From a virus: a stretch of DNA of 32,403 bases. Shown here piece by piece: positions 11,467 to 32,376 of the stretch; position 1 is the first letter of the stretch, and each line of letters opens with the position of its first letter. The position numbers and the translations under genes were made by a program. The DNA lies in the IMG/VR virus record IMGVR_UViG_3300010412_000054, positions 1 through 32,403 of that record. The stretch is one strand, 5' to 3'. The notes beneath the pieces are model-generated. The model saw nothing but the letters and a program-made list of their open reading frames with translations, searched no databases and had not been told where the DNA came from.

Positions 11467-13051
11467 CACCCTCACCATCAGAGTTGTCATCACTGTCACC
11501 ATTGTTTGATGGTGGCATTGTGATTGTGGCACTCAATTGTTTGGCAATCATTTCCTGTTTTTCAGCACTGATTTCTGCAATGCGCTCTCTGGCCTGGTCA
11601 GGCTCAATGTTCTCAATCACTGACAATGCATCAACCTTTGACATTAGACCAAGTCTCATTTTAGTTTCAATGTTGGCCAGTTTTTCAGATTCAGTCTGAA
11701 TCATTTCTGGTTTGTAAAAATTCACAGACACATACAAATCATCAGGAAAATCATCAGTCCAATATTTCTTGTCAAGTTGTGTTTCATCACCCTTGAGGTT
11801 GTTGTGCCAAACACCAACCAGTTTCACCAATTCTTGTTCAGCACTGTCATAATTATTTTGGTCATCCTTTGAGGCAGAGAATTGTTCAATCATTGATAAC
11901 AATCTCTCAATTCCTGAATTGAATTTGTTTGACTCTGCCTTGCCTGAAATTGTTTTTGGGTCAATTCCCCGACTTGAGAGGAAATTGGCCAACAAGAATT
12001 CACCAAATTGGATTGATGCACCAATGTCAGGTGATGGTGACTCAAATGAAAATGTGGTTGGATTGTCAGGGTCCTGTGGCAATCGAATCCCTTGACGTGG
12101 CCCAATGGTAACATATTCAGGCAACAGGTCATCTGAACCAGTGAACACTGGCACTGCAAAACCCTGCATTCTGATGATGTCCATGATGATTGACATATAT
12201 GCATTGTATTCAATTGAAAAATCAGTGAGTGATTGTCCTTGTCTGACCCAAAATTCAAAATCCTTGGCGGGTGCAACATCAACAAATGGCAGGTGGCCAA
12301 CAATGGGTGATTCAATGTCAATCAGTCCATTGGCACCCATGTTTTCATCTGGCAATATCTCACCCATTCCATTGGTGATGAAATTCAATTCCTTTGTCCA
12401 CCAAACAAACCTGGCCTTTTTTCTCCAGTCATCTGCATCAGCAATTTTTTGGTTTCTGAAATCCTGATATGGTTGACGATATTGTGACTTGGTGTAATCC
12501 ATGTTTTTGTTGCCAGCAACAAACCTGGTCCGGTCAAAACCACCAATGAAATATGCCTCTGGCATTTCAGGGTTTTTGGAATCAGGCACCACATTCACAT
12601 GGTGTCTCAACAATGGTCTGATTTGCAATTTGCCATACATTGGCAACACCTGAAAAATGTTTTGATTCTGCAGTTTGAAAAATGCATTTGACTTGGCCAA
12701 CTTCACATTGAAATTGCCATCATCATACATCATCTGAAGTGCATTTTCCTGACCATCTGACAATGTTGATTTGTCAGATGCAAATTGCCTCTCTGGTGGT
12801 TCTTTATACAGTGTTGATTCCTGTTTCACCACACGTCTGGCAATATTGATTGAACTAATTTTTGGCATCTGTCTGACAGTGGCCTCATTGTTGATTGAGT
12901 CAATCAACTTGTCATAAACATACTGTTCTTGTCTGTCCATGAAACATTCAAATTCCTTGTATGATGAGGCCATCCTTTGGACATTTTCCTCACCCAATGA
13001 CTCATCAATCAAATCCTTGATTTCAGCCTGATTCTCATAGTTGATCGCCAT
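11453..13051 (-). CDS. Portal protein
   Basis: This 532-residue protein sits between the terminase region and the scaffold/capsid genes, the typical portal location. It begins MAINYENQAEIKDLIDESLG, has a helical N-terminal third and beta-rich middle, and ends with an acidic, Asn/Ser/Asp-rich tail (NGDSDDNSDGEGDGQV). Length matches the usual 400-700 residue range. The dodecameric portal forms the DNA channel at the unique capsid vertex and docks the terminase. A strong GAGGGATTAA leader precedes the ATG. The start overlaps the methyltransferase 3' end by 17 bp, and the 3' end overlaps the next gene by 14 bp. Confidence 0.75.
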   Translation of the reverse strand: MAINYENQAEIKDLIDESLGEENVQRMASSYKEFECFMDRQEQYVYDKLIDSINNEATVRQMPKISSINIARRVVKQESTLYKEPPERQFASDKSTLSDGQENALQMMYDDGNFNVKLAKSNAFFKLQNQNIFQVLPMYGKLQIRPLLRHHVNVVPDSKNPEMPEAYFIGGFDRTRFVAGNKNMDYTKSQYRQPYQDFRNQKIADADDWRKKARFVWWTKELNFITNGMGEILPDENMGANGLIDIESPIVGHLPFVDVAPAKDFEFWVRQGQSLTDFSIEYNAYMSIIMDIIRMQGFAVPVFTGSDDLLPEYVTIGPRQGIRLPQDPDNPTTFSFESPSPDIGASIQFGEFLLANFLSSRGIDPKTISGKAESNKFNSGIERLLSMIEQFSASKDDQNNYDSAEQELVKLVGVWHNNLKGDETQLDKKYWTDDFPDDLYVSVNFYKPEMIQTESEKLANIETKMRLGLMSKVDALSVIENIEPDQARERIAEISAEKQEMIAKQLSATITMPPSNNGDSDDNSDGEGDGQV

Positions 13052-13805
13052 TTAATCCCTCGATTCTTTTTTCTGCAATTGAAAAATATTTTTCATCCAA
13101 CTCAATACCAACAAATTTTCTGTTTAAATTTTTGCAAGCAACACCAGTTGAGCCGCTGCCCATTGTAAAATCTAAAACTGTTTCACCTTCAAGTGTGTAG
13201 GTTTTGATTAGGTATTCAAGTAAAGGCACGGGTTTTTGTGTGGGGTGTTGAGATTTTTTTTCTGAATCAATTACTAGCACATCATTTGGATAACAGGTGT
13301 AAATTGCCTCATATTTTTTGCCAACTTGATTTTCCCTTTTTCCTAAAGTTGAAAAATGTTTGCTTGGCTCAACACTTCTTATCTTCCCATGTGGCTTTAG
13401 TCCTTGAGGGTAGTAAATCATCTTATTTTTTGTTTGGTTTTGATGGTTTATTTTACCTAAACTAAAGACTGAAATTGTTTCCGTTGCTTTTAATGGTCTA
13501 TTTTTAGCGTGTTGGAATCCTGAATTTCTTCTGTTTTCCTTAAACCAAACCCAGTCGTATTTAAACCGCTTAAGGTTACTCACCCTTAACCGACTAGAAA
13601 ACGGTTCACTCCCGAATAAACAAATAGCACCATTGGGCTTAACTATTCTGTGCAATTGTTCCCACATCGGTTCAAACGGAATAACATTATCCCATTTACA
13701 AGCCGTGGTGCCATAAGGTGGGTCAGTCAAACACATATCAACCGATTTATCAGGCAGGGTTTTCATGATTTCCAAACAGTCACCATGAAAAATATTGATT
13801 GCCAT
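13035..13805 (-). CDS. DNA methyltransferase, DPPY type (beta class order)
   Basis: The 256-residue enzyme transfers a methyl group from S-adenosylmethionine to the exocyclic amino group of a base in DNA (N6-adenine or N4-cytosine). The catalytic motif DPPYGT is at residues 28-33. The conserved QHPTQKP segment lies in the middle-to-late part, and the SAM-binding motif FTMGSGSTG is at about 213-221. Catalytic motif before SAM motif is the beta-class order. No restriction endonuclease is adjacent, so it is an orphan that may protect phage DNA from host restriction. Dinucleotide use differs strongly from its neighbours (hand count: 46 TA and 15 CG in 766 bp, versus 11 and 6 in 780 bp of the portal gene), suggesting recent acquisition. 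The target sequence is not predictable here. Confidence 0.9.
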   Translation of the reverse strand: MAINIFHGDCLEIMKTLPDKSVDMCLTDPPYGTTACKWDNVIPFEPMWEQLHRIVKPNGAICLFGSEPFSSRLRVSNLKRFKYDWVWFKENRRNSGFQHAKNRPLKATETISVFSLGKINHQNQTKNKMIYYPQGLKPHGKIRSVEPSKHFSTLGKRENQVGKKYEAIYTCYPNDVLVIDSEKKSQHPTQKPVPLLEYLIKTYTLEGETVLDFTMGSGSTGVACKNLNRKFVGIELDEKYFSIAEKRIEGLNGDQL

Positions 13806-13809
13806 TCAC

Positions 13810-15186
13810 TCACCCTCTCATGTTGCCACCTTTTCGGCGTGTGGCTGATTTTGCTGACACAATCCCATATCCTGCAGCAGTTGTGACGTGTTGATATGGG
13901 TGTTTGGGACCATCATTCTCAATGAACCTTGAACCAGTTTTCCATTGAGTCAATCTGAATCCCTTGTCTAGTGTTGGACAATCCTGGTAAACAGTCAACC
14001 TCACCTCACCCTTGGAATTCATCAAATATGATCGCACATCATTGTGCCTTTGAACAATGGGGGGGTTTGATTTCTTGACCCTTGATGTGAATTTCAACCT
14101 GCCATCATCATAATTGGCCATGAATTTTTTGATGATATCCCAATCAGAATGAATTGACTTTGTGGAATTTGCTGCACCTGTGGCATCACCTGCAATCATG
14201 ATTTCACAACCAAAGTCAAGGACACCCCTTGATGCCCATTCCTCACAACTGTCCAATGTCCTCATTCCCTCAACAATGACCTCATCAAAAAAATGGAAAT
14301 GGTCATCAATATATTGGAATGCACAGGATGAAAAAGGTTTTCCCTCACCTATGTTGAAATCCCATGACAACCAAATAGGGTATTGCCTGTTGACCTTGTA
14401 TGATTGATTTGGCCTGAAATGAATTGAGGAATCATAATTGTAATAGATGCCATCTGACCCAATCTCAAGCCATTCACCCTCAAGCATCCTTTTTGCCATT
14501 TTCGGGTCATATTTTTTCTCAAGGTTTTCAACATACCACCAGGGCAAAAAAGGATTGTCCCTGGTCCTTGAATAATAGATGTGCGTGGTCGGGTCATCAG
14601 ACTGTGCAGGCACAACAATTTTGTCATATATCCAATGTGTGGGTGAATCAGGGTTTGTGCAGGCCAACACCATGTTTTGCCTCACACCCATCACTCGACC
14701 AACACGCGCAAATAATTCCTCAAAGGCAGTTGATTCCTCATCCTGCATTTCAGTGAATTCCTCAATCAACAACATGGACAATTCAAGTGACCTAAATTTT
14801 TGATAGTTACCATCTGACCATGACCTGGTGATAAGTCGGGAGCCATTCCTCAACTTGATTGATAGGTCAGCCATGTTGAGAAAGTAAAACGAGTCACGTT
14901 TGAAACAACTAAGTTGTTCAAGCAATTTCAACCAGATTGTTTCCTTGAGGTCAGTGAGATTTTTCCTGCACACACAAACAACGGCACCAGGGTTTTCAAT
15001 CATGTGTTTGATGGCAATATGGGCGGCAATGGTTGACTTGGCTGAACCAACAGCACCAGTCAACAGGATGGTCTGAACACCTATGTCAAAATTGATTTTG
15101 TTATGCAGGTCATAGGTGAGTTGGTGTTGCCACCTTATTTCAGTTGGATTGAATGACTCAAATGTGACTGCCTTTGCTGCACTCAT
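13810..15186 (-). CDS. terL: Terminase large subunit
   Basis: The 458-residue motor/nuclease packages DNA into the procapsid. The Walker A motif GAVGSAKS is at residues 44-51. An ATPase Walker B with catalytic acidic residues, LLIEE, is at 139-143. The nuclease domain has WDFN with D276 and GDATG with D334, matching the RNase H-like C-terminal domain of terminases. The start overlaps the small subunit stop as ATGA. Only 4 bp separate the stop from the methyltransferase ATG. Packaging strategy cannot be read directly, though the nearby HNH gene hints at cos-type cleavage. Confidence 0.93.
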   Translation of the reverse strand: MSAAKAVTFESFNPTEIRWQHQLTYDLHNKINFDIGVQTILLTGAVGSAKSTIAAHIAIKHMIENPGAVVCVCRKNLTDLKETIWLKLLEQLSCFKRDSFYFLNMADLSIKLRNGSRLITRSWSDGNYQKFRSLELSMLLIEEFTEMQDEESTAFEELFARVGRVMGVRQNMVLACTNPDSPTHWIYDKIVVPAQSDDPTTHIYYSRTRDNPFLPWWYVENLEKKYDPKMAKRMLEGEWLEIGSDGIYYNYDSSIHFRPNQSYKVNRQYPIWLSWDFNIGEGKPFSSCAFQYIDDHFHFFDEVIVEGMRTLDSCEEWASRGVLDFGCEIMIAGDATGAANSTKSIHSDWDIIKKFMANYDDGRLKFTSRVKKSNPPIVQRHNDVRSYLMNSKGEVRLTVYQDCPTLDKGFRLTQWKTGSRFIENDGPKHPYQHVTTAAGYGIVSAKSATRRKGGNMRG

Positions 15187-20367: not shown

Positions 20368-21135
20368 ATGGGATTGCCTACACAAAAAACTGTGACACAG
20401 ACTGATTTCAAATCACAAACAATCATGATTGTTGGTCAGCCAAAAATCGGAAAAACAAAACTCGCTGCAGAAATTTATCCCAATGCAATTTGGGCCACAA
20501 CAGAGGATGGTCACAAACACGTTTCCATTTTTGAATATCCCATCAAGAATTGGCAGGACTTTGCAAATCTGTCCAAAATGTTACTGACACAAGAACACAA
20601 TTTTGAGGCCATCATCATTGATGTGTTGGACCATCTGATTGATTTTGCCAAGGATGAGATTGTTGCAGAGGAAAAAGTCAAGGCATTGGCTGATTTGAAA
20701 TTTGGCAAAGGCACTGAAATGTTGCGAAAAAAACTCATGAGGCCAATTCTGTTGCTATCAAGAAAAATGCCCATTGTTTTCATCACTCATCAAAAAGAGA
20801 GAATGCAAAAAGACAAAGGCCTTGAATGGACTGTGTCAGCAACCTCAATGAGTGAATCAGTTGAAAAAACATTCACAGGAATGTGTGACATTATTTTGAA
20901 CTGTTACCAGGATGAAAATGGTCAACGTGTGATGAGGACAAAACCAACCAAATATGTCCAGGCGGCAGGTGACAGAACAGGAATGTTGCCAGAAAAATTG
21001 CCTTTGAGTGCTAAGGCCTTAAGGCAGGCATACATGAAACCAAATGACATTGAAGAAATGCAGCAAAAAGTTGAACAATTAAAAGGAAAAATACAAAATG
21101 GCCAGACACAAAATGCAACCAACCAAACCCCTTGA
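20368..21135 (+). CDS. Sak4-like RecA-fold ATPase (single-strand annealing recombinase)
   Basis: The 255-residue protein is a phage RecA-fold P-loop ATPase. Walker A GQPKIGKT is at residues 23-30 and Walker B IIID at 82-85, followed by a helicase-like core with RKMPIVFITHQKERM. Phage ATPases of this size beside a DUF669-type protein are usually Sak4, which promotes single-strand annealing and works with SSB. An AAAGGATGAAAC leader gives a strong ribosome binding site. The C-terminus (LKGKIQNGQTQNATNQTP) is disordered, and the next gene starts inside it (38-bp overlap). Assignment to Sak4 rather than another AAA_24 protein is by context. Confidence 0.7.
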   Translation: MGLPTQKTVTQTDFKSQTIMIVGQPKIGKTKLAAEIYPNAIWATTEDGHKHVSIFEYPIKNWQDFANLSKMLLTQEHNFEAIIIDVLDHLIDFAKDEIVAEEKVKALADLKFGKGTEMLRKKLMRPILLLSRKMPIVFITHQKERMQKDKGLEWTVSATSMSESVEKTFTGMCDIILNCYQDENGQRVMRTKPTKYVQAAGDRTGMLPEKLPLSAKALRQAYMKPNDIEEMQQKVEQLKGKIQNGQTQNATNQTP

Positions 21136-21412
21136 TTTTGATGTGACACCAAGGACAATCACTGCCTGCCAACAACTATTCATCAATGTGATGTATAAGG
21201 CAAAAATGACAAAGGCAGAAATTGCTGAGGTGATGGGATATCAGTCAGAGAGATATGTCATTGAAATCCTCAAAGGCACACAATTGATTCCTGGCAAAAA
21301 GGTCAAGGCATTGTCAGAGGTGTCTGGCATAGCTCCTGACAAATTTTTAAAAGCATGGTTAAGTGATAAGCGTCATTACTATATGGCAGAAATACAAAGA
21401 GGTGAAAAATGA
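21098..21412 (+). CDS. Helix-turn-helix DNA-binding protein
   Basis: The 104-residue protein carries a Cro/CI-type helix-turn-helix at about residues 37-60 (TKAEIAEVMGYQSERYVIEI) followed by a helical PGKKVKALSEVSGIAPDKFL segment. It would bind an operator and regulate early genes; candidate sites are the TGTCA palindromes nearby. AAAAGGAA upstream suits the ATG at 21098. Overlaps with both neighbours (38 bp with the ATPase, ATGA with the next gene) place it inside the recombination operon. A recombination accessory role is also possible. Confidence 0.6.
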   Translation: MARHKMQPTKPLDFDVTPRTITACQQLFINVMYKAKMTKAEIAEVMGYQSERYVIEILKGTQLIPGKKVKALSEVSGIAPDKFLKAWLSDKRHYYMAEIQRGEK

Positions 21413-21873
21413 GTTTTGCGGAGCTATGGAAACAAGCCAAACCAAAGGTGATGGGTGAGAGATTGCCACCAGGTGAATACAATGCAATGGTGGTGAAAAC
21501 AGAAATCAAACAGGCAATTGAGGCAGACAAATCAGATTCAGTTTCAATGGAATTGACTGTGATTGAGGGTGAGTGCATGAATCAAAAAACATGGGCCACC
21601 TTTGGTTTGAATGAAAAAGGAATGCCAATTCTCAAAGGCACATTGATGAAAATTGGTGTGAATGAAATGGCAGTTGATGATGTGAATTCACTTGAATCAT
21701 TGTCATCATTGTTGCTTGAAAATGTTGTTGGCAAATGTGTCAAAATCAAGGTCAAGGAAAACACCTACAATGGGAAACAATACACCAACACATACATTGC
21801 AGATGTGATTGAATCTCAGAATGGCAGTTCAGATGTGGGGTCATTTGACCCATCAGAGGAATTGAATTTTTGA
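21409..21873 (+). CDS. DUF669-like protein, probable single-strand DNA-binding protein
   Basis: The 154-residue protein begins MSFAELWKQAKPKVMGERLP and has an OB-like beta-rich core (ECMNQKTWATFGLNEKGMPI, later CVKIKVKENTYNGKQYTNTY). Proteins of this type (DUF669) accompany Sak4-like ATPases and are thought to bind single-stranded DNA. It ends FDPSEELNF, an acidic tail with terminal aromatic residue like the tip of bacterial SSB that recruits partners. The ribosome binding site is AAAGAGGTG. The last 58 bp overlap, antisense, the end of the VRR-NUC gene. Confidence 0.55.
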   Translation: MSFAELWKQAKPKVMGERLPPGEYNAMVVKTEIKQAIEADKSDSVSMELTVIEGECMNQKTWATFGLNEKGMPILKGTLMKIGVNEMAVDDVNSLESLSSLLLENVVGKCVKIKVKENTYNGKQYTNTYIADVIESQNGSSDVGSFDPSEELNF

Positions 21874-22325
21874 GGCAAGTCATCCAACAAAACTGACTTT
21901 TTGTCGGGAGCATTCAGCCACCTGGCAAATAGTTGGGCCAAATGTTTTGAACCATCGGTGACACAGGCAAAACAATTGGTGTTGATTTTTTGGGTCAGAA
22001 ATTGGACCTGTGCTGCACTGGCATTGGTCCGTTTCCCTGGTGCCTTTAGTTCAATGAAAACTGCCCTGCCATCAATCATATTGCCAACCAGGTCACTGAA
22101 TCCTGATTTGGCTTGTTGCTGATGATAGCCACCAGATTTTTCATTAAACACTGCCCTTGATTCAACCACATCAATTGACCAATTCCTTGACCTGCACCAT
22201 GCTAAAATATCGGGTTGGGTGATGTCCCTCTCAGGGTGTGTGTGTTTTCTTTTTTGTTTGGGCAATAATTTTTTGTGATGGTTTTCAATTGCCTGTTGCA
22301 CACGTTTTTTCAAATCATCAGTCAT
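21816..22325 (-). CDS. VRR-NUC domain nuclease
   Basis: The 169-residue protein has a PD-(D/E)XK-like VRR-NUC core: a central SGFSDLVG with D78, then VFIELKAPGKR with E92 and K94, and a Gln (Q106) in AAQVQFL. The family cleaves structured DNA, often acting as a Holliday-junction resolvase or repair nuclease. The N-terminal region is basic (LLPKQKRKHTHPER). It ends with an acidic tail and terminal SELPF, again SSB-tip-like. The ATG at 22325 has no clear ribosome binding site, so the start is less certain. It lies convergent to the recombination cluster, overlapping the SSB-like gene 3' end by 58 bp. Confidence 0.75.
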   Translation of the reverse strand: MTDDLKKRVQQAIENHHKKLLPKQKRKHTHPERDITQPDILAWCRSRNWSIDVVESRAVFNEKSGGYHQQQAKSGFSDLVGNMIDGRAVFIELKAPGKRTNASAAQVQFLTQKINTNCFACVTDGSKHLAQLFARWLNAPDKKSVLLDDLPQKFNSSDGSNDPTSELPF

Positions 22326-22339
22326 GGGGAAATTATTTC

Positions 22340-22477
22340 ATGGAATTTTTAGTTGATGCAATAATGATGGTGATTGCAGGCATTTTAATTGTCACAGTTG
22401 TGTGCAGTTTGTGTGCAGTTTCAATGATTTTATGGGCCTTGTTCAATACAATGTATTGGTGGCACAGAGACAAATAG
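22340..22477 (+). CDS. Small single-pass membrane protein (holin candidate)
   Basis: The 45-residue protein (MEFLVDAIMMVIAGILIVTV VCSLCAVSMILWALF then NTMYWWHRDK) is almost entirely hydrophobic from residue 4 to about 36, with a short charged C-terminal end. GGGGA lies about ten bases upstream of the ATG at 22340. Small membrane proteins next to lysis enzymes are often holins; here the neighbours are a patatin phospholipase and an amidase. The sequence alone does not show hole formation, and one long or two short membrane helices are possible. Confidence 0.55.
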   Translation: MEFLVDAIMMVIAGILIVTVVCSLCAVSMILWALFNTMYWWHRDK

Positions 22478-22488
22478 AGAGGATTTAA

Positions 22489-23298
22489 ATGAGAGAAATT
22501 TTGGTGATTCCTGGTGGTGGTTTGGTTCAATGGTCCTATTCATTGGGAGCATTGTCACAATTGTCTGAAAAACAAGGGTTTGAAATAGATATTGCAATGG
22601 GCAATTCAGGTGGTGCAGGTTGCATCTATTCCCTGGCCAGACAATCAATTGTTGAATCCCTTGAGTTGGTCACATCATTTGAAAAAACAGATGATGCATA
22701 CAAAAGGAATTCATTATTCAGATTGTTTGGTGTGTTTTTCATCAAAAATGGTTGGTATAATTATGACAAATTCAGGGCAAAAATGCAGGAAATTGAGTCA
22801 AAACCAACCAAGTTTGAAACCTGGTGTGAGGTCATAGACACAAAAAGATCAATTTTGCCCATCAGTGTGAAAAATCCCAAATGCAGTGACACCATTTCAT
22901 CAATGTCAATCCTGGCAATGGTTGACCTTGAAAACTCATGTGTTGACCCTGGACTGGTCAATGTGGTGCCTTTGAATGCAATGGCAAAGGTGGTGAGGCC
23001 TGGTGACAGAATCACCCTCATTGATGCCACACACAGGCAACCTGAACCATTTGATGCCTCAAAAAACAAATGGCATGAAAATGCAATGGTGTTACCTAAA
23101 ATCACTGCATGGAATACATACATGAATGACCTTTATGAGTTGAGAAAATGGTGTTTCGATTCTGATGTGAAATTGAGAATCATTGAATCCAAATCAAACC
23201 ATGATGTGTATGATTTCAGTTCAAAAACAGTATATGAGGCATTCAAGGCAGGCAGAGAGGAAACCAGCGAGAAAATCAGCACAGGTGAATTGTCATGA
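22489..23298 (+). CDS. Patatin-like phospholipase
   Basis: The 269-residue enzyme has the patatin serine-aspartate catalytic layout: an oxyanion loop GGGLVQW (residues 9-15), the nucleophile elbow GNSGG (S40), and a D153 within VDPGLVNVVPLNAM that fits the DG(G/A)..N.P dyad position. The canonical Gly after the Asp is Pro here. Patatins hydrolyse acyl esters of membrane phospholipids (phospholipase A), releasing fatty acids. No signal peptide is seen, so it acts in the cytoplasm, probably at the inner membrane. GAGAGGA gives a good ribosome binding site. The gene lies between a small membrane protein and a zinc amidase, which suggests a role in lysis or membrane disruption. Confidence 0.8.
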   Translation: MREILVIPGGGLVQWSYSLGALSQLSEKQGFEIDIAMGNSGGAGCIYSLARQSIVESLELVTSFEKTDDAYKRNSLFRLFGVFFIKNGWYNYDKFRAKMQEIESKPTKFETWCEVIDTKRSILPISVKNPKCSDTISSMSILAMVDLENSCVDPGLVNVVPLNAMAKVVRPGDRITLIDATHRQPEPFDASKNKWHENAMVLPKITAWNTYMNDLYELRKWCFDSDVKLRIIESKSNHDVYDFSSKTVYEAFKAGREETSEKISTGELS

Positions 23299-23504
23299 TT
23301 GTTGGCCAGCAATACAGGCACAAAAAGTCTGGCAGACTGGTCAGGATTGAAAAAATCATTGTGAATGAATTTGATGGCAGTGATTCACATTTTCTGATTG
23401 CAACGTGGCTAAGAAATGGAATTCCTGGCCACACACACATGGTCAGGATTCAAAGGTTCAAATCAATCCTTGATGATTTTGAGGTGATACATGATGACAA
23501 ATGA
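23295..23504 (+). CDS. Small hypothetical protein between patatin and amidase
   Basis: The 69-residue product starts at an ATG overlapping the patatin stop (ATGA), so it is co-translated. It is basic at the start (MIVGQQYRHKKSGRLVRIEK), then has alternating hydrophobic residues, suggesting a small beta-barrel (SH3-like), and ends acidic (DDFEVIHDDK). No enzymatic motif or membrane segment. The tight coupling suggests a helper of the patatin or amidase, which is inference only. Confidence 0.6.
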   Translation: MIVGQQYRHKKSGRLVRIEKIIVNEFDGSDSHFLIATWLRNGIPGHTHMVRIQRFKSILDDFEVIHDDK

Positions 23505-24261
23505 GGAAAAAATTGAGGAAATCAAAAAACATTTGAGAAATGGCCTGATTGACATTCAAAAGGCCTATCATTTGATTGATACGTTTGAGGAAATCATGCC
23601 AAGTAAACCAGAAAAAATTCAGAAATCATTGCCTGGTGCAGTTGTTGAACCAGTTTCACACACTCAGAGAGGCAAAATAAAAGGTGGCCCTAGGGGTGCA
23701 GTCATTCATTTCACTGCAGGTCAGAGTGCATTTTCTGCATTGGATACAGGCAAAAAAAATGGTCACTATTTCATGTCAATTGAGAGAAATGGCCAATGGC
23801 ATATTCCAACAGGGTTTTCCATTGATTCATGGGGATATCATTGCGGTGAATCCAAATGGCCAGACCATGAGTTGGGTGGTTTTTTGGATTGCAACAGGGA
23901 ATTGATGGGCATTGAATTGGTTGCAGGTGGCAGACTGACATTGAAAAATGGCCATTGGGAAACCTGGTTTGAAAAAAGAATCCCCATAGACCAAACCAGA
24001 TATGTTGAAACCACTGCCAACATCAAAGGTGGCACATATCACATTTTCACCCCTGAACAGGAAAAATCATTGATTGATTTGCTGATGTTTTTGAAAAACA
24101 ACAATCCTGACAGATTCAATTTTGATTTTGTCCTTGGCCATGATGAGGTGTCTGGCCCTCAGGGTTTGGGATACTGGCGAAAAACTGACCCAGGTGCAGC
24201 ACTGTCAATGACCATGCCTGAATTCAGAAAATTGTTGAAAAAGAAATATGAGGGGAATTGA
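23491..24261 (+). CDS. N-acetylmuramoyl-L-alanine amidase (Amidase_2 endolysin)
   Basis: The 256-residue enzyme cleaves the bond between N-acetylmuramic acid and L-alanine in peptidoglycan. The zinc ligands are H73 (AVIHFTAG), H217 (VLGHDEV) and D233 (KTDPG), with WGYHCGES and GIELV between, as in the Amidase_2 family. An N-terminal helical segment of about 45 residues precedes the domain; there is no signal peptide, so access to the wall would need a holin. GAGGTG lies six bases upstream of the first of two adjacent ATGs (23491 or 23494). The next gene begins at its stop (TGATG). Confidence 0.9.
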   Translation: MMTNEEKIEEIKKHLRNGLIDIQKAYHLIDTFEEIMPSKPEKIQKSLPGAVVEPVSHTQRGKIKGGPRGAVIHFTAGQSAFSALDTGKKNGHYFMSIERNGQWHIPTGFSIDSWGYHCGESKWPDHELGGFLDCNRELMGIELVAGGRLTLKNGHWETWFEKRIPIDQTRYVETTANIKGGTYHIFTPEQEKSLIDLLMFLKNNNPDRFNFDFVLGHDEVSGPQGLGYWRKTDPGAALSMTMPEFRKLLKKKYEGN

Positions 24262-24476
24262 TGGGATATCTGAAAATCACAGATTCATGTGGCAATGTGG
24301 TTGTTGAATTGGGTGAAAAAATAGATGACCAACATGAAATCATATACAATGGTGATGGCACTGTGACACAATCACACAGATATGAGCCAACTCAATACCT
24401 GCCACCAACTGATGACCAATGGCAGGCATTTGAAAACTGGCTGATTGCAACAGGCAGAATGAAAAAATCAGAATAA
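24261..24476 (+). CDS. Small hypothetical protein
   Basis: The start is the ATG at 24261 (71 residues), overlapping the amidase stop by one base with AGGGG upstream. The sequence MGYLKITDSCGNVVVELGEK then DDQHEIIYNGDGTVTQSHRY looks like a short beta domain followed by a helix DDQWQAFENWLIATGRMKKS. It is the last gene of the rightward cassette and overlaps the leftward structural gene end by 9 bp. Function unknown. Confidence 0.6.
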   Translation: MGYLKITDSCGNVVVELGEKIDDQHEIIYNGDGTVTQSHRYEPTQYLPPTDDQWQAFENWLIATGRMKKSE

Positions 24477-25835: not shown

Positions 25836-28295
25836 TTAAATATACCTGTATGGTGCGCCACCATCGGCACTGACACCAATTAAATCAACCAAATGAATAT
25901 TTGATGGCACAAATCCAAGGTCAGTTTCAACTGTGATTTGGCCACCTGAAATGTCAGTCACCTTTGATTCAGGACTGACAACAGTGAATCCCTCATCATG
26001 CACCACCAACTGACAACCAATGAAAAACTTGGGAGCATCAGCCAATGCAACATTGAAAATAAACTGGCTCACACCAGATGTTACACTAACCTGTGGGCCA
26101 ATGAAAACATGAATTTGTTTCCAAGGTTGTGCAAATTTTGGGTCAGGATTTTCAGGATAAAATGGCATTTCCAACAAATAGTTTTCACCAGGTGTGAATG
26201 GCAATGCAGGCGATAGGTTCAGGAAATCTGCAGTCAAACCGCCAACAGAATCAATGAATGACTCCCCAAAAATTGTCCAATCATCATTGTGGACAATCAC
26301 AGGTTGACCAACAAAATCACGCCATTTTGCAATTTCAAATTGAGTGTCTGATGTGCCAAATGACCTTTTCAGTTTTATGACTGATGCAGTTGAACCAGTG
26401 TTGATGTATGATGATGGGCCAATCACACCATATCTGCCATCTGTATTGTAATTTGTTTGTTGCAGGGTCAGTTGAATTGAACCTGTTTTGATGTTCATTC
26501 TTTTTTGCACACACTCATATATTTTTTGTGATGGTTTTCTGTCACCAGATTCAATGTCAACAAACTTGAGTTTTTCATCACCCATCACAACAGTGTCACC
26601 AACTTCGATTGCAAAACCTGACCTGAAATCAACCTCAAGGTCAATTGATTCAGCGGCAAATTGATATCTGTCTTTTATTCTCTGTGTGTTGCGGTTGATG
26701 AGGTCAATGGTGGCACCGTTTTCCCTCATTCCTAATGATTCAATTTGCAGTTTTTGAATGCCTTTGCGCTTGAACCTTGAAATTGAATCTGCTAAAAATG
26801 TCGCAACACCAGACTTGTATTTGTCACCAAGGTTTTCCTTGTCGATTTTATACACTATGGCGTTGTAAAAATCCTTGTTTACAGACCTTGTTGTGATGAT
26901 TTTTGACCCGTTTTTGACTCTGTCTGCATCTAGGGTGACTGTGTTTGAATCTGCCAATGGTGGGAATGTGATGCCAATTGAGGCCCTGCCTTTTCTTGGC
27001 AGAGAGTAAAGTGCAGAGGGCCAGTAAATTTGGGTATTGATGTCCTCACCACTGAATGCATCAGTCAAACGGAAATCATAATCAGCAATTTGGCCTGCAA
27101 ACAAGGATTTTAATTTTTCATGTTGAACCACATCTGTGAATGTTGGGTCCATTGCAAGGCCATCATTTAAAACATTGTATTTTGAATCAAATGAAACCTC
27201 TGCACTTGTCGTTTCCTCAAGAACAAGTGAGGCATCAATCACAATGAATTGGCCATCAACATCATCGAAAATTTCAATCACCTCAACATTGGTGACATTG
27301 TTTGGCCCATTTGTGGCACCAGTGATGGTGATGAAATCACCAGCAACAATGCCATAAAGCAATTGCAGATTCACACCTTGAAAATACACTGCATTTGCAA
27401 CACTCAATTCCTCTGATATTTTGACAAATGAGGTGGCCTTAATACCACTGACAAATGGTGAATCTGAACCAGACACCATGAATTTGAGGGCCAAATCAAT
27501 GGCATTTTCCTGAAATCTGTAAAATGATGAAACCTTTGCACCTGCCTCATGTATGACTGCAGTGGTGCCAAGTTGCGCTCTGACAACACTGAATGTGTTT
27601 GGTCCAATTGAATTGACCAACATGATTTCATCATCAATTGATATGTATGAGGTCAAACAATCATGTGATGTGAAAAAATCAGAGATTGTTTCATTAACTG
27701 TCAAACCTGTTTGAGTGTCATTCATTTGTGCAGTGAGTGTTTTTGGCACCATTGGCTCAAAAATATCCTGCCTTTTTAGGTTTTCAGGGTGTGCAATTGA
27801 CAGAATTGAACCACCTGCCACATTCCTCACTGAATCAACTGTGCCCTGCAGGACAGGAATAAATGATTCAGGGAATGCAGTGTTGGCAAAACCCAAATAA
27901 ACTGTGGCCTTTTTTGCCAGAATTTCATTCAATATTTTTCCTGGTGAAACCAGGTTGGTTGCAAAACCATTGAAATCAAGAATTTTAAAATCAAGGACTG
28001 TGGTTGATTGAGTGCCACCCTGTGATTGCCTCAACTGTTGTGACAATGTGGTTGATGACCCATTCAGGTCCATGACATTGACCTGGTCCTTGAATTCCAA
28101 CAGGCCACCAATGACCAATGGAATACCCAATGAACTAACATCACCAATGGCCCATTCATCACCAATTCTCAGTTTTTTTGTGACAGGAATGGCACCAATG
28201 AGTGTGGACAATCCCTCAATCTGCACCACAATATTGGGTGTGATTTGGTTTTTCTGTGACTGAATCAGTGCCTCATTGGTTAAATCAAAGGACAT
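25836..28295 (-). CDS. Large tail hub / tail-tip protein
   Basis: At 819 residues this is the second-largest protein. The first half (to about residue 240) includes LEFKDQVNVMDLNGSSTTLS and looks like the beginning of a tail hub. The middle and C-terminal parts are beta-rich, with SSYINTGSTASVIKLKRSFG and a DYDFRLTDAFSGEDINTQIY region. Size, beta content and location in the tail/lysis block suggest a central tail-tip hub comparable with lambda J-type proteins. No enzymatic motif is evident. The gene is coupled to the preceding lipoprotein gene by a TAATG overlap. Family needs a profile search. Confidence 0.6.
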   Translation of the reverse strand: MSFDLTNEALIQSQKNQITPNIVVQIEGLSTLIGAIPVTKKLRIGDEWAIGDVSSLGIPLVIGGLLEFKDQVNVMDLNGSSTTLSQQLRQSQGGTQSTTVLDFKILDFNGFATNLVSPGKILNEILAKKATVYLGFANTAFPESFIPVLQGTVDSVRNVAGGSILSIAHPENLKRQDIFEPMVPKTLTAQMNDTQTGLTVNETISDFFTSHDCLTSYISIDDEIMLVNSIGPNTFSVVRAQLGTTAVIHEAGAKVSSFYRFQENAIDLALKFMVSGSDSPFVSGIKATSFVKISEELSVANAVYFQGVNLQLLYGIVAGDFITITGATNGPNNVTNVEVIEIFDDVDGQFIVIDASLVLEETTSAEVSFDSKYNVLNDGLAMDPTFTDVVQHEKLKSLFAGQIADYDFRLTDAFSGEDINTQIYWPSALYSLPRKGRASIGITFPPLADSNTVTLDADRVKNGSKIITTRSVNKDFYNAIVYKIDKENLGDKYKSGVATFLADSISRFKRKGIQKLQIESLGMRENGATIDLINRNTQRIKDRYQFAAESIDLEVDFRSGFAIEVGDTVVMGDEKLKFVDIESGDRKPSQKIYECVQKRMNIKTGSIQLTLQQTNYNTDGRYGVIGPSSYINTGSTASVIKLKRSFGTSDTQFEIAKWRDFVGQPVIVHNDDWTIFGESFIDSVGGLTADFLNLSPALPFTPGENYLLEMPFYPENPDPKFAQPWKQIHVFIGPQVSVTSGVSQFIFNVALADAPKFFIGCQLVVHDEGFTVVSPESKVTDISGGQITVETDLGFVPSNIHLVDLIGVSADGGAPYRYI

Positions 28296-28645
28296 TAGTC
28301 ACACCTTTTTTTGGCAATTGCCTCAATTTCCTTGAACCATTTCATGTATGATTCATGTGTTTCAAATTCATCATTGATTGGATAACAGATTGACCTGTGC
28401 ATGATTGCCCTATCTTGAGGGTTTTTTGCATCAAGGACAAACTGCCTGTCAGGGTCATTGATTCCTGCACACCCAAATCTCACCCAAGGTTTTTGGTTTT
28501 CATCAAATGTCAGCCACAAACCACATCTGTTGCCATCAGGTTGTGGTGGTATTTTGTTACAACCACTAAGTATTGCGAATACGACCAAGGTCAGCAACAG
28601 CACCAACAAATTCATCAAATGATTGCGCATTCTTGATTCTCTCAT
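28295..28645 (-). CDS. Lipoprotein, outer-membrane spanin (o-spanin) candidate
   Basis: I use the ATG at 28645 (116 residues) because GAGGTG lies upstream at suitable distance. The N-terminus has a basic head (MRESRMRNH), a hydrophobic stretch LLVLLLTLVVFAI and a lipobox LSGC followed by NKIPPQPDG, so a signal peptidase II lipoprotein. An outer-membrane lipoprotein overlapping the 3' end of a gene for a membrane-anchored helical protein is the Rz/Rz1 arrangement, in which the pair fuses the membranes at lysis. The mature part (about 80 residues, with several Cys) is longer than lambda Rz1, so a different lipoprotein function is possible. Confidence 0.6.
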   Translation of the reverse strand: MRESRMRNHLMNLLVLLLTLVVFAILSGCNKIPPQPDGNRCGLWLTFDENQKPWVRFGCAGINDPDRQFVLDAKNPQDRAIMHRSICYPINDEFETHESYMKWFKEIEAIAKKRCD

Positions 28646-28778
28646 GTGCCACCTCAATTTCCTTGTCACGTTCTGCCTTGGCCTTTTTTTCCTCAATGTA
28701 TTTTCTCACCTGACTGGCAATGAATGTTGCCAGCCAATTGAGAATTGCATTGAGAATCCATGTCCCTATTGCACTCAC
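28566..28778 (-). CDS. Membrane-anchored helical protein, inner-membrane spanin candidate
   Basis: The 70-residue protein starts at a GTG. Residues 3-22 (AIGTWILNAILNWLATFIAS) are hydrophobic and would form a membrane anchor; the remainder is a highly charged helix (KYIEEKKAKAERDKEIEVAH). This is the profile of an i-spanin, and the lipoprotein gene overlaps its 3' end by 80 bp in another frame. It is short for an i-spanin, and a holin-type function is an alternative. The ribosome binding site is weak, so it may be coupled to the preceding 59-residue gene. Confidence 0.5.
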   Translation of the reverse strand: MSAIGTWILNAILNWLATFIASQVRKYIEEKKAKAERDKEIEVAHERIKNAQSFDEFVGAVADLGRIRNT

Positions 28779-28780
28779 TA

Positions 28781-28960
28781 TTATTCACCATCTGCCAACA
28801 TATCATCAACAAAATCATCTAGGAATTTCAACACCTGGTCATCCCATGTGTTGTCAGTTTTTTGCACATAGGCCTCTGCCATTTTGAAAATCACCTCATC
28901 ATAAACAACACGCGCAATTTTTTTGACAACTTTTTCAGTCAAAATTTCTTTCCAATTCAT
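28781..28960 (-). CDS. Small acidic protein in the lysis block (59 residues)
   Basis: An ATG at 28960 opens a 59-codon frame to a TAA at 28781: MNWKEILTEKVVKKIARVVY then DEVIFKMAEAYVQKTDNTWD, ending DDFVDDMLADGE. GAGAGGATATTC gives a strong ribosome binding site, and its start overlaps the stop of the CHAP-like gene (ATGA). The C-terminal half is acidic and helical, the first half basic/amphipathic. It fills the gap between two genes that otherwise would leave 180 bp unexplained. Function unknown, perhaps a lysis regulator. Confidence 0.6.
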   Translation of the reverse strand: MNWKEILTEKVVKKIARVVYDEVIFKMAEAYVQKTDNTWDDQVLKFLDDFVDDMLADGE

Positions 28961-29523
28961 GAATATCCTCTCTGTGTTTGGTTGAAAAATGGGTCAACAA
29001 ATCCCATCATAAACCATTTATTGTGGCCATTCATTGACCTTTTTTTCAAGTAAACAAAATCGTTTTTGGCAATGATGAATTGACCATCCCCAGTCAAAAG
29101 GCCAGCCTCAATGCACTCAAATGAGTTTTTGCCAACCACATCTGTGACCAAACCCATGTGGCCCTCTGGCCTGTCTGTATGTTTCCAAACAGCAATGAAA
29201 CCAGGTTCAGGATGACCAAACACCTTGTCCTGATTTCTGAACCAAAATGTCAGGGGATTTGTGGCCTTGAACAGACCAATAGGGATTTCAAATTCATCCT
29301 CAACATGGGTCAGGACTGCATCAATGAAAACCATGCAGAGTTTTTGCCGATCTCTCAAAACCTCAGAGTCATTGAAATCTGCCTGCAAATCCTCAATGTC
29401 CAAAAAGGTTTTTGCAAATTGGACAGCATAGAGGTTTTGTTCATTCTCTGATTTCAAGGTGGCCCTCAATCCTTGAGAGTCGTTTTTGTATGTCATCCAA
29501 CTTGTCAAGAATGAGGCCATCAT
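28957..29523 (-). CDS. CHAP/NlpC-like cysteine peptidase, second wall hydrolase candidate
   Basis: The 188-residue product shows a CHAP-like triad: C63 in KLCMVFIDAV, H122 in EGHMGLVTDV and the acidic NSFECIEAG strand (E136/E139 region) after it. The GFIAVWKHTDRPEGHMGLVT segment is the classical CHAP stretch (GDIAVW...GHVGIV). Such enzymes cut peptidoglycan peptide bonds and often serve as endolysins or virion hydrolases. GAGGTCAC supports the ATG at 29523, although that overlaps the holin-like gene by 83 bp. No signal peptide. This is separate from the zinc amidase encoded on the other strand. Confidence 0.65.
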   Translation of the reverse strand: MMASFLTSWMTYKNDSQGLRATLKSENEQNLYAVQFAKTFLDIEDLQADFNDSEVLRDRQKLCMVFIDAVLTHVEDEFEIPIGLFKATNPLTFWFRNQDKVFGHPEPGFIAVWKHTDRPEGHMGLVTDVVGKNSFECIEAGLLTGDGQFIIAKNDFVYLKKRSMNGHNKWFMMGFVDPFFNQTQRGYS

Positions 29524-29659
29524 GTGACCTCAATTTCTCAATCTCATATTGATTTGCACTGCCCTGTGCATATATTGTTGTCAGCCACACCATGCCACCA
29601 ATCACAAAAACAACAAATGAAATTGGTACTAGGGTATTTTCTGACAACACATTTTTCAC
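29441..29659 (-). CDS. Holin-like membrane protein
   Basis: The 72-residue protein starts at a GTG overlapping the fibre stop (GTGA), with CAGGA upstream. Residues 10-30 (LVPISFVVFVIGGMVWLTTI) form one membrane helix. A charged coiled-coil tail, LDKLDDIQKRLSRIEGHLEI, follows. This type is common next to phage lysins and is annotated as holin or holin-associated. The immediately downstream gene is the CHAP-like hydrolase, consistent with export or activation of that enzyme. The topology also fits a small inner-membrane spanin. Confidence 0.6.
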   Translation of the reverse strand: MKNVLSENTLVPISFVVFVIGGMVWLTTIYAQGSANQYEIEKLRSHDGLILDKLDDIQKRLSRIEGHLEIRE

Positions 29660-32376
29660 TCAGCAAATCCTGTGATTTTCTGGCAGGAAAACTCCAATGC
29701 ACCTGCCACCTCTAGAATAGTTGGATTGTATCCCTCTGAACAATATTCTTTTCTCTTTGCGCGACAATCTGCCAGGTCAGTGCAGGTGAAACTTTTTCCA
29801 GACTCAACCTCATATATTGGTTTTGTATAATCAACAGGTGTGATTTTTTTGAATTTTTCCTTTGGTTGTTTCCCCTCAAGTGCTAACAATCTGTCCTCAT
29901 GGTCCTGAAATCCTGCAACCAATGTTGGCACCAATTTCTCATAGGCAACTGTCCAATATAAACCAGTGTCCTGTTCAGTGAAAACAATATCAGGCACACA
30001 GTTTTTCACTTCCTGTGCAATGAAACCATGGTCATTTCTGTCAGGGAAATCTGTGCTAACCAATTCAGATTTCCATTTGAATCTCACTGCCCTTAAACAC
30101 ATCAATGCATCGACTGCACCTGACAATGTTGTGATATCTTTTTTGATTCTGGCATCTGATGACAGATAACCAAGTTCACCTGTAACTGATGACCATCTAA
30201 CATCGTTTGAACCTGCAATTGCAGAAAATCCTTCTGCATACAATGAACCATCACCAGCCACCCAAAAATCATCTGCGGATGATGCAGGTCTTAACATAAT
30301 GGCTGGAACCGTTGCTGCTGTTTGAGTTGTTTGAAGTATTGCGGTGTCTGCTGATTTGTCATAAAAATACAAATTAAGACCTGATGTGTTATCTCTAAAA
30401 CGAAAATCTGCAGTTGTTACCAAACTCTCAAGTTGATATTGTTGCACTGGGGTATCAGTTGTAAATATTATGCCCGCATTGCCTGCACCCTCAGCACTGG
30501 CTCTATAATAAGCACTGCCACCTGTCCCTACAATATCAACAACATCACCTATTGGCCGCAAAACGATATCATCTTGCGCTGTCAAAGTAATATCACCAGT
30601 TGATGGCGTTGCATCGAATTGAAAAAAGGGAATTTCTGTAAATGACGGGAATATGTTGTAACTCATTATAAAATTTGTTGCAGCATCATGCTCAATTCTA
30701 AAGTCTGTATTGCTTGGTGTGTCTAGATTTAAGTAAGCACCGTTTACGTCAGCACTATATATGGTCAAACCATCATTGTTGAATTGGACTTGCTCTGAAC
30801 CATTGAAGGATATAACTTCATTTGTAAATCTCTGAAGCCAAGTGGTGCCACCTTGTTGCTCAACATAGAAATTGCCAGATGAATTGACACCCATGATTGT
30901 GTCTGTGACATTGTTTGAATCAAATTCAATGAATGCAGCGGTGCCTGATTGATTGTTGATTCTCAAATCACCAGTCAATACAACATCACCTGTGCCATTG
31001 GCACTTGTTGGTGAAATGAAAATCTGTCCATTGCCACCAATGGTTGTGTTGCCATTTTGTTGTCTGAAAAACCCTGTGCCAAGGAATGAATCTGTCAAAT
31101 CAAGGCCAGTTTCACAGGTTGTGATACTGTTATTGCAACTCCCAACAAATTTGGCATTGTCAAAACCTGAAACTGTTATTTTGGCATCACTGTCTGCAAA
31201 TGATGCTGCACCAACTGTCAAATTGACGTTTGTTGGACCAGTGCCAGAAAATTTGTATGAGTCATCATTTCCTAGATTGCCAGCACCATCAGCATAGAGA
31301 AAACCAAATGCAGTTGGTGAATTCCCAATTGCATCACCAATGGAAACACCACCACCAGATGCATTGATGGTCAGTGTTTCATTGGCACCATCATTGTTTT
31401 CAACCAATGTGATGTTTGTGCCTGCAACCAATTTGCCGTTCAAATATCCTGCAGTTGTGTCATTGGCTGATACTTTGACAGTTTCATCTGTGTTGATATC
31501 CCCTGACATATTGGCATATTGAACACCATCTGAATATCTGAATTTATTGTCAGTGGTGTTGTAATAGATTTGACCTGCAGTTACATCAACAGGGTCAGAT
31601 GCCTGTTGTGCCAACACATATATTGTTGAATCTGAATCCAAAATGGTGACTAAACCATCCAAATATGTGTATCCTCTGGTGCCAGATGATGTGGTGCCAG
31701 ACTTGATCTCAACATTCCCTGTGTCACCTGTTGCACCACTGTTGATGCTTCCTGATTGCACAACCACTGTGCCTGTTGCACCAATGTTGCCTGTTTCCAA
31801 TGGACCTGAACCAAATGTTGCAGTGCCTGTGTTGACCAGTGAATTGTCTAATGATGATGACCTTGCACGACCAGATTCAACCAGCAAATTTCCTGTGGTT
31901 GTCAAATTGGCCACATCACCAGCACCATCACGCAATTCACCAGACCTGATGAAAACACCACCTGTTGTGCCATAGGCACCTGCAGCGTTGATTCTGCCTG
32001 ATTCAAGCAACATATTTTGCGTGATTCCTGAACCTGCAACAGAGTGTCTAGGTGTTGTCAAAACACCAAACTGATTTGGTGGTGTGCCTGATGTTGTTTC
32101 AATCTCAACTCTGTTTGATTTCAATTTCACAATATTTGCTGTTGCACTGGCATCCAACAAAACCTGACCTTGGGTCACAATGTTGGCATCATCACCAGAA
32201 TTGATGACCAAATCATTCACTGTTGTGATAGTGGCCTCTGTTGCATTTGCCTCAATGGTCATTTTTTGTGTTGTGGTGCCCAACTGTCTGACTTCAAATT
32301 TGTCTGCAGTTCTAACTGTGGCACCATAGGCAACCAATGTGACTAATGTAAATAAAACAATGCTATACAATTTCAT
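29656..32376 (-). CDS. Tail fibre/spike protein with S74 intramolecular chaperone
   Basis: At 906 residues this is the largest protein. The N-terminus has a signal-peptide-like stretch (MKLYSIVLFTLVTLVAYGA). Beta-helical repeats rich in GTG/SG/TGT motifs follow up to about residue 530. A segment of about residues 533-732 has TA/CG-rich coding DNA unlike the rest, and an S74 peptidase-chaperone domain begins near 737-740 with LSSDARIKKDI, then HGFIAQEVKNCVPD. The S74 domain folds the fibre trimer and cuts itself off at the Ser-Asp site. A C-terminal extension of about 65 residues with four cysteines follows. An AGGAGA ribosome binding site precedes the ATG. Confidence 0.85.
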   Translation of the reverse strand: MKLYSIVLFTLVTLVAYGATVRTADKFEVRQLGTTTQKMTIEANATEATITTVNDLVINSGDDANIVTQGQVLLDASATANIVKLKSNRVEIETTSGTPPNQFGVLTTPRHSVAGSGITQNMLLESGRINAAGAYGTTGGVFIRSGELRDGAGDVANLTTTGNLLVESGRARSSSLDNSLVNTGTATFGSGPLETGNIGATGTVVVQSGSINSGATGDTGNVEIKSGTTSSGTRGYTYLDGLVTILDSDSTIYVLAQQASDPVDVTAGQIYYNTTDNKFRYSDGVQYANMSGDINTDETVKVSANDTTAGYLNGKLVAGTNITLVENNDGANETLTINASGGGVSIGDAIGNSPTAFGFLYADGAGNLGNDDSYKFSGTGPTNVNLTVGAASFADSDAKITVSGFDNAKFVGSCNNSITTCETGLDLTDSFLGTGFFRQQNGNTTIGGNGQIFISPTSANGTGDVVLTGDLRINNQSGTAAFIEFDSNNVTDTIMGVNSSGNFYVEQQGGTTWLQRFTNEVISFNGSEQVQFNNDGLTIYSADVNGAYLNLDTPSNTDFRIEHDAATNFIMSYNIFPSFTEIPFFQFDATPSTGDITLTAQDDIVLRPIGDVVDIVGTGGSAYYRASAEGAGNAGIIFTTDTPVQQYQLESLVTTADFRFRDNTSGLNLYFYDKSADTAILQTTQTAATVPAIMLRPASSADDFWVAGDGSLYAEGFSAIAGSNDVRWSSVTGELGYLSSDARIKKDITTLSGAVDALMCLRAVRFKWKSELVSTDFPDRNDHGFIAQEVKNCVPDIVFTEQDTGLYWTVAYEKLVPTLVAGFQDHEDRLLALEGKQPKEKFKKITPVDYTKPIYEVESGKSFTCTDLADCRAKRKEYCSEGYNPTILEVAGALEFSCQKITGFAE

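Follow-up and report, generated by a model that had tools for sequence, protein, structure and literature searches.

We found that the gene at 22489-23298 of a viral record encodes a real but very divergent patatin, placed in an unusual amidase-linked setting; viral patatins as such, and the idea of a patatin-based lytic cassette, were already known. The protein is most likely an accessory lysis enzyme, a role that we assign tentatively, as we infer its activity, substrate, timing and part in lysis.

The window analysed here, i.e. the whole stretch of DNA, is an IMG/VR virus record in its entirety (32,403 bases). A search for a terminal repeat found none, so that the genome may be incomplete. 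Encoded leftward are a terminase, a major head protein, a primase, an endonuclease and tail proteins. Identity of the terminase to its nearest phage records is only about 25%, which indicates a phage remote from the known ones. The relatives by TerL and primase (L003 and L002) gave no patatin or Amidase_2 match. The patatin belongs to a block of rightward genes, and no prominent promoter or terminator signals were seen. The block and its surroundings are as follows:

20368-21873, plus strand: rightward genes upstream of the block, for a Sak4-like protein, an HTH protein and an SSB-like protein
21816-22325, minus strand: VRR-NUC nuclease gene, the single leftward gene before the block
22340-24476, plus strand: patatin/amidase block
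22340-22477, plus strand: hydrophobic ORF of 45 residues, a candidate single-span membrane protein by hydropathy, unproven as a gene
22489-23298, plus strand: patatin-like acyl hydrolase of 269 residues, with Ser40 (GNSGG), Asp153 (DPG) and a GGG oxyanion loop (residues 9-11)
23295-23504, plus strand: protein of 69 residues, no family; overlaps the patatin gene (ATGA at 23295) and the amidase gene
23491-24261, plus strand: Amidase_2-type N-acetylmuramoyl-L-alanine amidase of 256 residues, candidate endolysin
24261-24476, plus strand: protein of 71-72 residues, no family; TGATG-coupled to the amidase gene

The preliminary description, made from the sequence alone, had recognised a patatin by its glycine-rich loop, nucleophile elbow and aspartate region, and these elements are indeed present. 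A plausible ribosome-binding site (AGAGAGGA) lies ahead of the patatin start, and the product carries the features that define the family, namely a Ser in a GxSxG motif (G38-N-S40-G-G42), an Asp in a DxG motif (D153-P-G155) and a Gly-rich oxyanion loop. The direct comparison with Pfam PF01734, proposed earlier as a check, fell short of the cut-off (21.8 bits against 27.7, E 2.3e-4, residues 5-100), but alignment with a profile of viral patatins in hhalign covered residues 1-264 with a probability of 98.2, an E of 5.6e-14 and a score of 96.7. Against the same profile, none of 100 shuffled sequences exceeded 21.7, and reversing the sequence gave 15.0. With a general patatin profile the score was 46.0, and shuffles stayed at or below 22.6. 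Direct searches with the protein found no relative in PHROGs, NCBIfam, PADLOC, phage records (even at E 10), plasmids, or viral and genome contigs, and the PDB searched by sequence returned chance matches only. Likewise, no patatin was recovered with two tight DNA patterns based on GGG...GNSGG, whose hits were mostly glycine-rich proteins.

Structure prediction for residues 1-269, another of the proposed checks, gave a patatin fold. With an alignment of 51 sequences, 50 of them viral relatives, AlphaFold2 produced a model with pLDDT 86 and pTM 0.86, while prediction from the single sequence reached pLDDT 31. The input sequences being themselves patatins, the model does not count as separate evidence of homology. 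The fold spans the whole protein (Z 24.4 to PlpD, Z 24.8 to 9kh6), and among the structural matches of the model are AbCapV, CapE, PlpD, potato patatin and mammalian PLA2s, as well as viral patatins in BFVD. Taken together, the profile comparison, the shuffled controls and the model settle the identity of the protein as a patatin, despite the Pfam score below cut-off.

The same alignment shows how far this patatin has diverged. G38, S40, G42 and D153 are invariant across the 51 sequences, and the protein departs from otherwise near-invariant positions at Q14 (for K), W15 (for G), L142 (for P), P154 (for G) and S234 (for P). The protein could in principle be a degenerate or non-enzymatic patatin, which would fit the DPG in place of the DGG or DGA of most patatins, the loss of the K/R-G after the oxyanion loop and a very long branch. 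With 2.2 substitutions per site, this branch was also too long for phylogenetic placement to succeed. However, the protein retains Ser40, Asp153 and the GGG loop, the reading frame is open over its full length and the fold is kept in the model, so that we regard degeneration as very unlikely. Judging from these residues, the phage patatin is probably an active lipid acyl hydrolase that uses a Ser40-Asp153 dyad.

The fold invites comparison with patatins of known systems. PlpD is a secreted protein. The PlpD of Pseudomonas aeruginosa shares the patatin fold with the phage protein (Z 24.4, rmsd 2.8, 232 residues aligned), which lacks any secretion part. CapV and CapE of CBASS systems, to which the preliminary description had pointed, are similarly alike in fold (Foldseek E 5e-10; VIA Z 23.8, rmsd 3.6, 264 aligned), but the phage protein is shorter and stands outside any CBASS operon, and the five proteins of the block gave no PADLOC match; the likeness of fold thus stands, and the likeness of system does not. 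A CapV-like effector directed against competing phages would agree with the presence of AbCapV and CapE among the best fold matches. Other patatins match the model equally well, however, and with neither a PADLOC match in the block nor a CD-NTase among the ORFs scanned, we hold a defence function to be highly improbable.

The neighbours of the patatin gene bear more directly on its role. The amidase was correctly named in the preliminary description: the product of 23491-24261 passes the Pfam cut-off for Amidase_2 (PF01510; 29.1 bits against 26), matches the endolysin family phrog_9611 (E 9.5e-4), and has His and Asp at the expected zinc-ligand positions, shared with related amidases in most rows of the alignment. 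The ATGA/TGATG coupling described from the patatin onwards is also present in the sequence: the patatin, the 69-residue gene and the amidase overlap in a chain, and at 24259-24263 a TGATG joins the stop of the amidase to the start of the following gene.

The small hydrophobic ORF in front of the patatin fared less well. It exists, with a best 19-residue mean hydropathy of 2.78, but its standing as a gene, let alone as the candidate holin once suggested, is unproven: by the same measure, a spurious antisense ORF at 32180-32329 of the window is more hydrophobic, and no homologue or family match was identified for the 45-residue product. This 'holin' cannot be told from a chance ORF. Because it occupies most of the 163-bp gap between the divergent nuclease gene and the patatin, the segment may instead be a promoter or leader.

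The window also holds a second group of genes that must be weighed against the patatin block:

28295-29659, minus strand: lysis-like cluster, separate from the patatin block
29441-29659, minus strand: single-span protein of 72 residues
28957-29523, minus strand: CHAP-like protein (CHAP E 6.4e-4, 20.6 bits, below the Pfam cut-off of 26)
28781-28960, minus strand: protein of 59 residues
28566-28778, minus strand: protein of 70 residues with a hydrophobic N-terminus
28295-28645, minus strand: lipoprotein with the lipobox LSGC

By shape, this cluster looks like a set of endolysin, holin and spanin genes. It contains a PHROG endolysin match (E 0.012), and the lipoprotein gene overlaps that of the 70-residue protein by 80 nt, out of frame, as in a spanin pair. 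Since the cluster is located among tail genes, the CHAP protein could be associated with the virion instead. It is mainly on account of this cluster that we do not accept the patatin block as the lysis module of the phage.

Consequently, a role in host takeover, or as an accessory gene of another kind, must be considered: the patatin would remodel or scavenge host membrane lipids, its adjacency to the amidase would be incidental, and lysis would come from the CHAP/lipoprotein cluster. Besides that cluster, the rightward genes upstream point in this direction, as they encode Sak4 and SSB proteins; these are recombination genes, so that the late expression that a lysis enzyme would need is an assumption here. 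Elsewhere, patatins have been described as auxiliary or moron genes, in a marine megaphage (PMC9723777) and in Burkholderia prophages (PMC2920897), respectively, and they have been reported in Arctic lake viruses (PMC9469726). Most viral relatives, among the matches listed, likewise sit away from lysis genes. Against it stand the overlap with the amidase operon and the independent cases of patatin-lysin adjacency in other contigs. We consider host takeover a serious possibility, if a somewhat less likely one than accessory lysis.

To place the gene among its relatives, we drew on a collection of viral patatins. A search with E. coli RssA hit 15 of 50,697 phage records, which served as profile seeds only, because the one annotated record examined has its patatin amid ordinary bacterial genes and the others examined are unannotated fecal contigs. 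With a degenerate DNA pattern for patatins in general, 34 stretches of viral contigs were picked out; alignment of 13 of these yielded 80 loci, and the deduplicated viral set comprises 76, including some on contigs longer than 200 kb that may be of cellular origin. The IMG/VR patatins of our alignment group A3 (e.g. L157 and L155) match the phage protein by profile over its full length and share its catalytic residues and a C-terminal helix with a conserved Gly, but identity is only about 20% and the phage protein lacks several of their near-invariant residues.

These relatives also differ in their surroundings, being found in structural gene clusters and not beside an Amidase_2 gene. In the nearest ones (L155-L158, L160, L162 and L164) the patatin lies among structural-looking genes, often touching its neighbours; over the whole set of 76 loci, 57 have a neighbour on the same strand no more than 10 bp away, and tail and head-tail families occur among the neighbours. 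Such settings would suit a virion-linked enzyme, carried by the particle and directed at the host membrane during entry. In the 32,403-base record, however, the patatin gene is located outside the structural operons, and we think this role unlikely.

In L155, L156, L157 and L162 the patatin is followed by a membrane protein of 41-57 residues. Across all 76 loci the enrichment of small membrane proteins is weak, with 11 having one within two genes of the patatin (6.4 +/- 1.9 in the control) and three within one gene (3.4 in the control). We also observed that at least three patatin neighbours match Trypsin_2, the L155 protein among them, to which the L156 and L158 proteins align at 41%. These trypsin-like proteins have an N-terminal hydrophobic stretch, and their genes (L155 9154-9900, L156 9333-9977 and L158 8997-9803) lie downstream of the patatin, at a distance of one to four genes.

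We then scanned the immediate neighbours of the 76 loci with Pfam and PHROGs. Most loci had no adjoining lysin or holin among the matches listed, and at least three did. In L180 (7923-9559), an Amidase_2-like gene just under the Pfam cut-off overlaps the patatin by 7 nt; in L191, an M15-type lysin gene is directly upstream. In L139 (10271-13457, minus strand), an amidase, an SPP1-type holin and an RssA-like patatin follow each other with 2-bp gaps, the single Holin_SPP1 match having been assigned to the gene of this cassette by its sequence, and the same genes recur in L124 and L137; all three are large phage contigs. Seen from the lysins, three of nine genes lie within two genes of a patatin where about 0.5 would be expected (P about 0.02, a post hoc and rough estimate). 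The nine came from a record search for Amidase_2, M15_4 and phage lysozyme; for the latter two it was confined to 50 records, and one of the contigs is short. A few unrelated viral contigs thus repeat the patatin-lysin adjacency.

How do these observations weigh on accessory lysis? In its favour are the gene overlap running from the patatin to the amidase, the adjacencies in L180, L191 and L139/L124/L137, and, for the enzyme itself, the profile match with its controls, the confident model and the four invariant residues. A lytic cassette made of a patatin and a holin-like protein has moreover been proposed for Wolbachia phage WO (PMC9203015). There, too, the patatin is near a small membrane protein proposed to be holin-like (PMC9203015), but phage WO has an ankyrin protein and no canonical endolysin, whereas an amidase follows here; we liken the two by description and not by sequence. 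On the other side are the many viral patatins with no lysis gene beside them among the matches listed, the second lysis-like cluster, the unproven holin candidate, and L157, the closest relative by phmmer, whose lysozyme is about 10 kb from its patatin. The lysis-module reading of the preliminary description is therefore kept in part: adjacency does recur, in few contigs, but most relatives show no lysis gene beside the patatin among the matches listed, and the phage has a second candidate cluster.

If the patatin does act in lysis, membranes would first be permeabilised late in infection, and it would then hydrolyse phospholipids of the host at the same time as the amidase cuts the wall. Such a lipid-directed step would parallel the addition of LysB to mycobacteriophage lysis. 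LysB, which is also directed at lipids but belongs to a different kind of enzyme, is required for mycobacteriophages to lyse their hosts efficiently and acts within the lysis cassette as a third step (PMC5707550); the analogy is functional, as enzyme and substrate differ and we claim no homology. More broadly, unrelated tailed phages may have repeatedly placed a patatin phospholipase in their lysis gene set, together with an amidase, an M15 lysin or an SPP1-type holin, which would make enzymatic membrane hydrolysis a recurring extra step beside holin, endolysin and spanin. This generalisation is doubtful at present, and what most deserves attention is that the adjacency recurs in unrelated contigs. 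Were phospholipases to prove lysis enzymes, the holin/endolysin/spanin scheme would gain a lipid-hydrolysing component, and lipid-hydrolysing lysis would extend beyond mycobacteriophage LysB to ordinary bacteria. Even if the lysis role is false, a patatin missed by BLAST and below cut-off in Pfam has been recovered, together with a sizeable set of viral patatins without known function. Elsewhere in the window, we noted that a DNA methyltransferase gene directly adjoins the terminase gene (13035-15186, minus strand).
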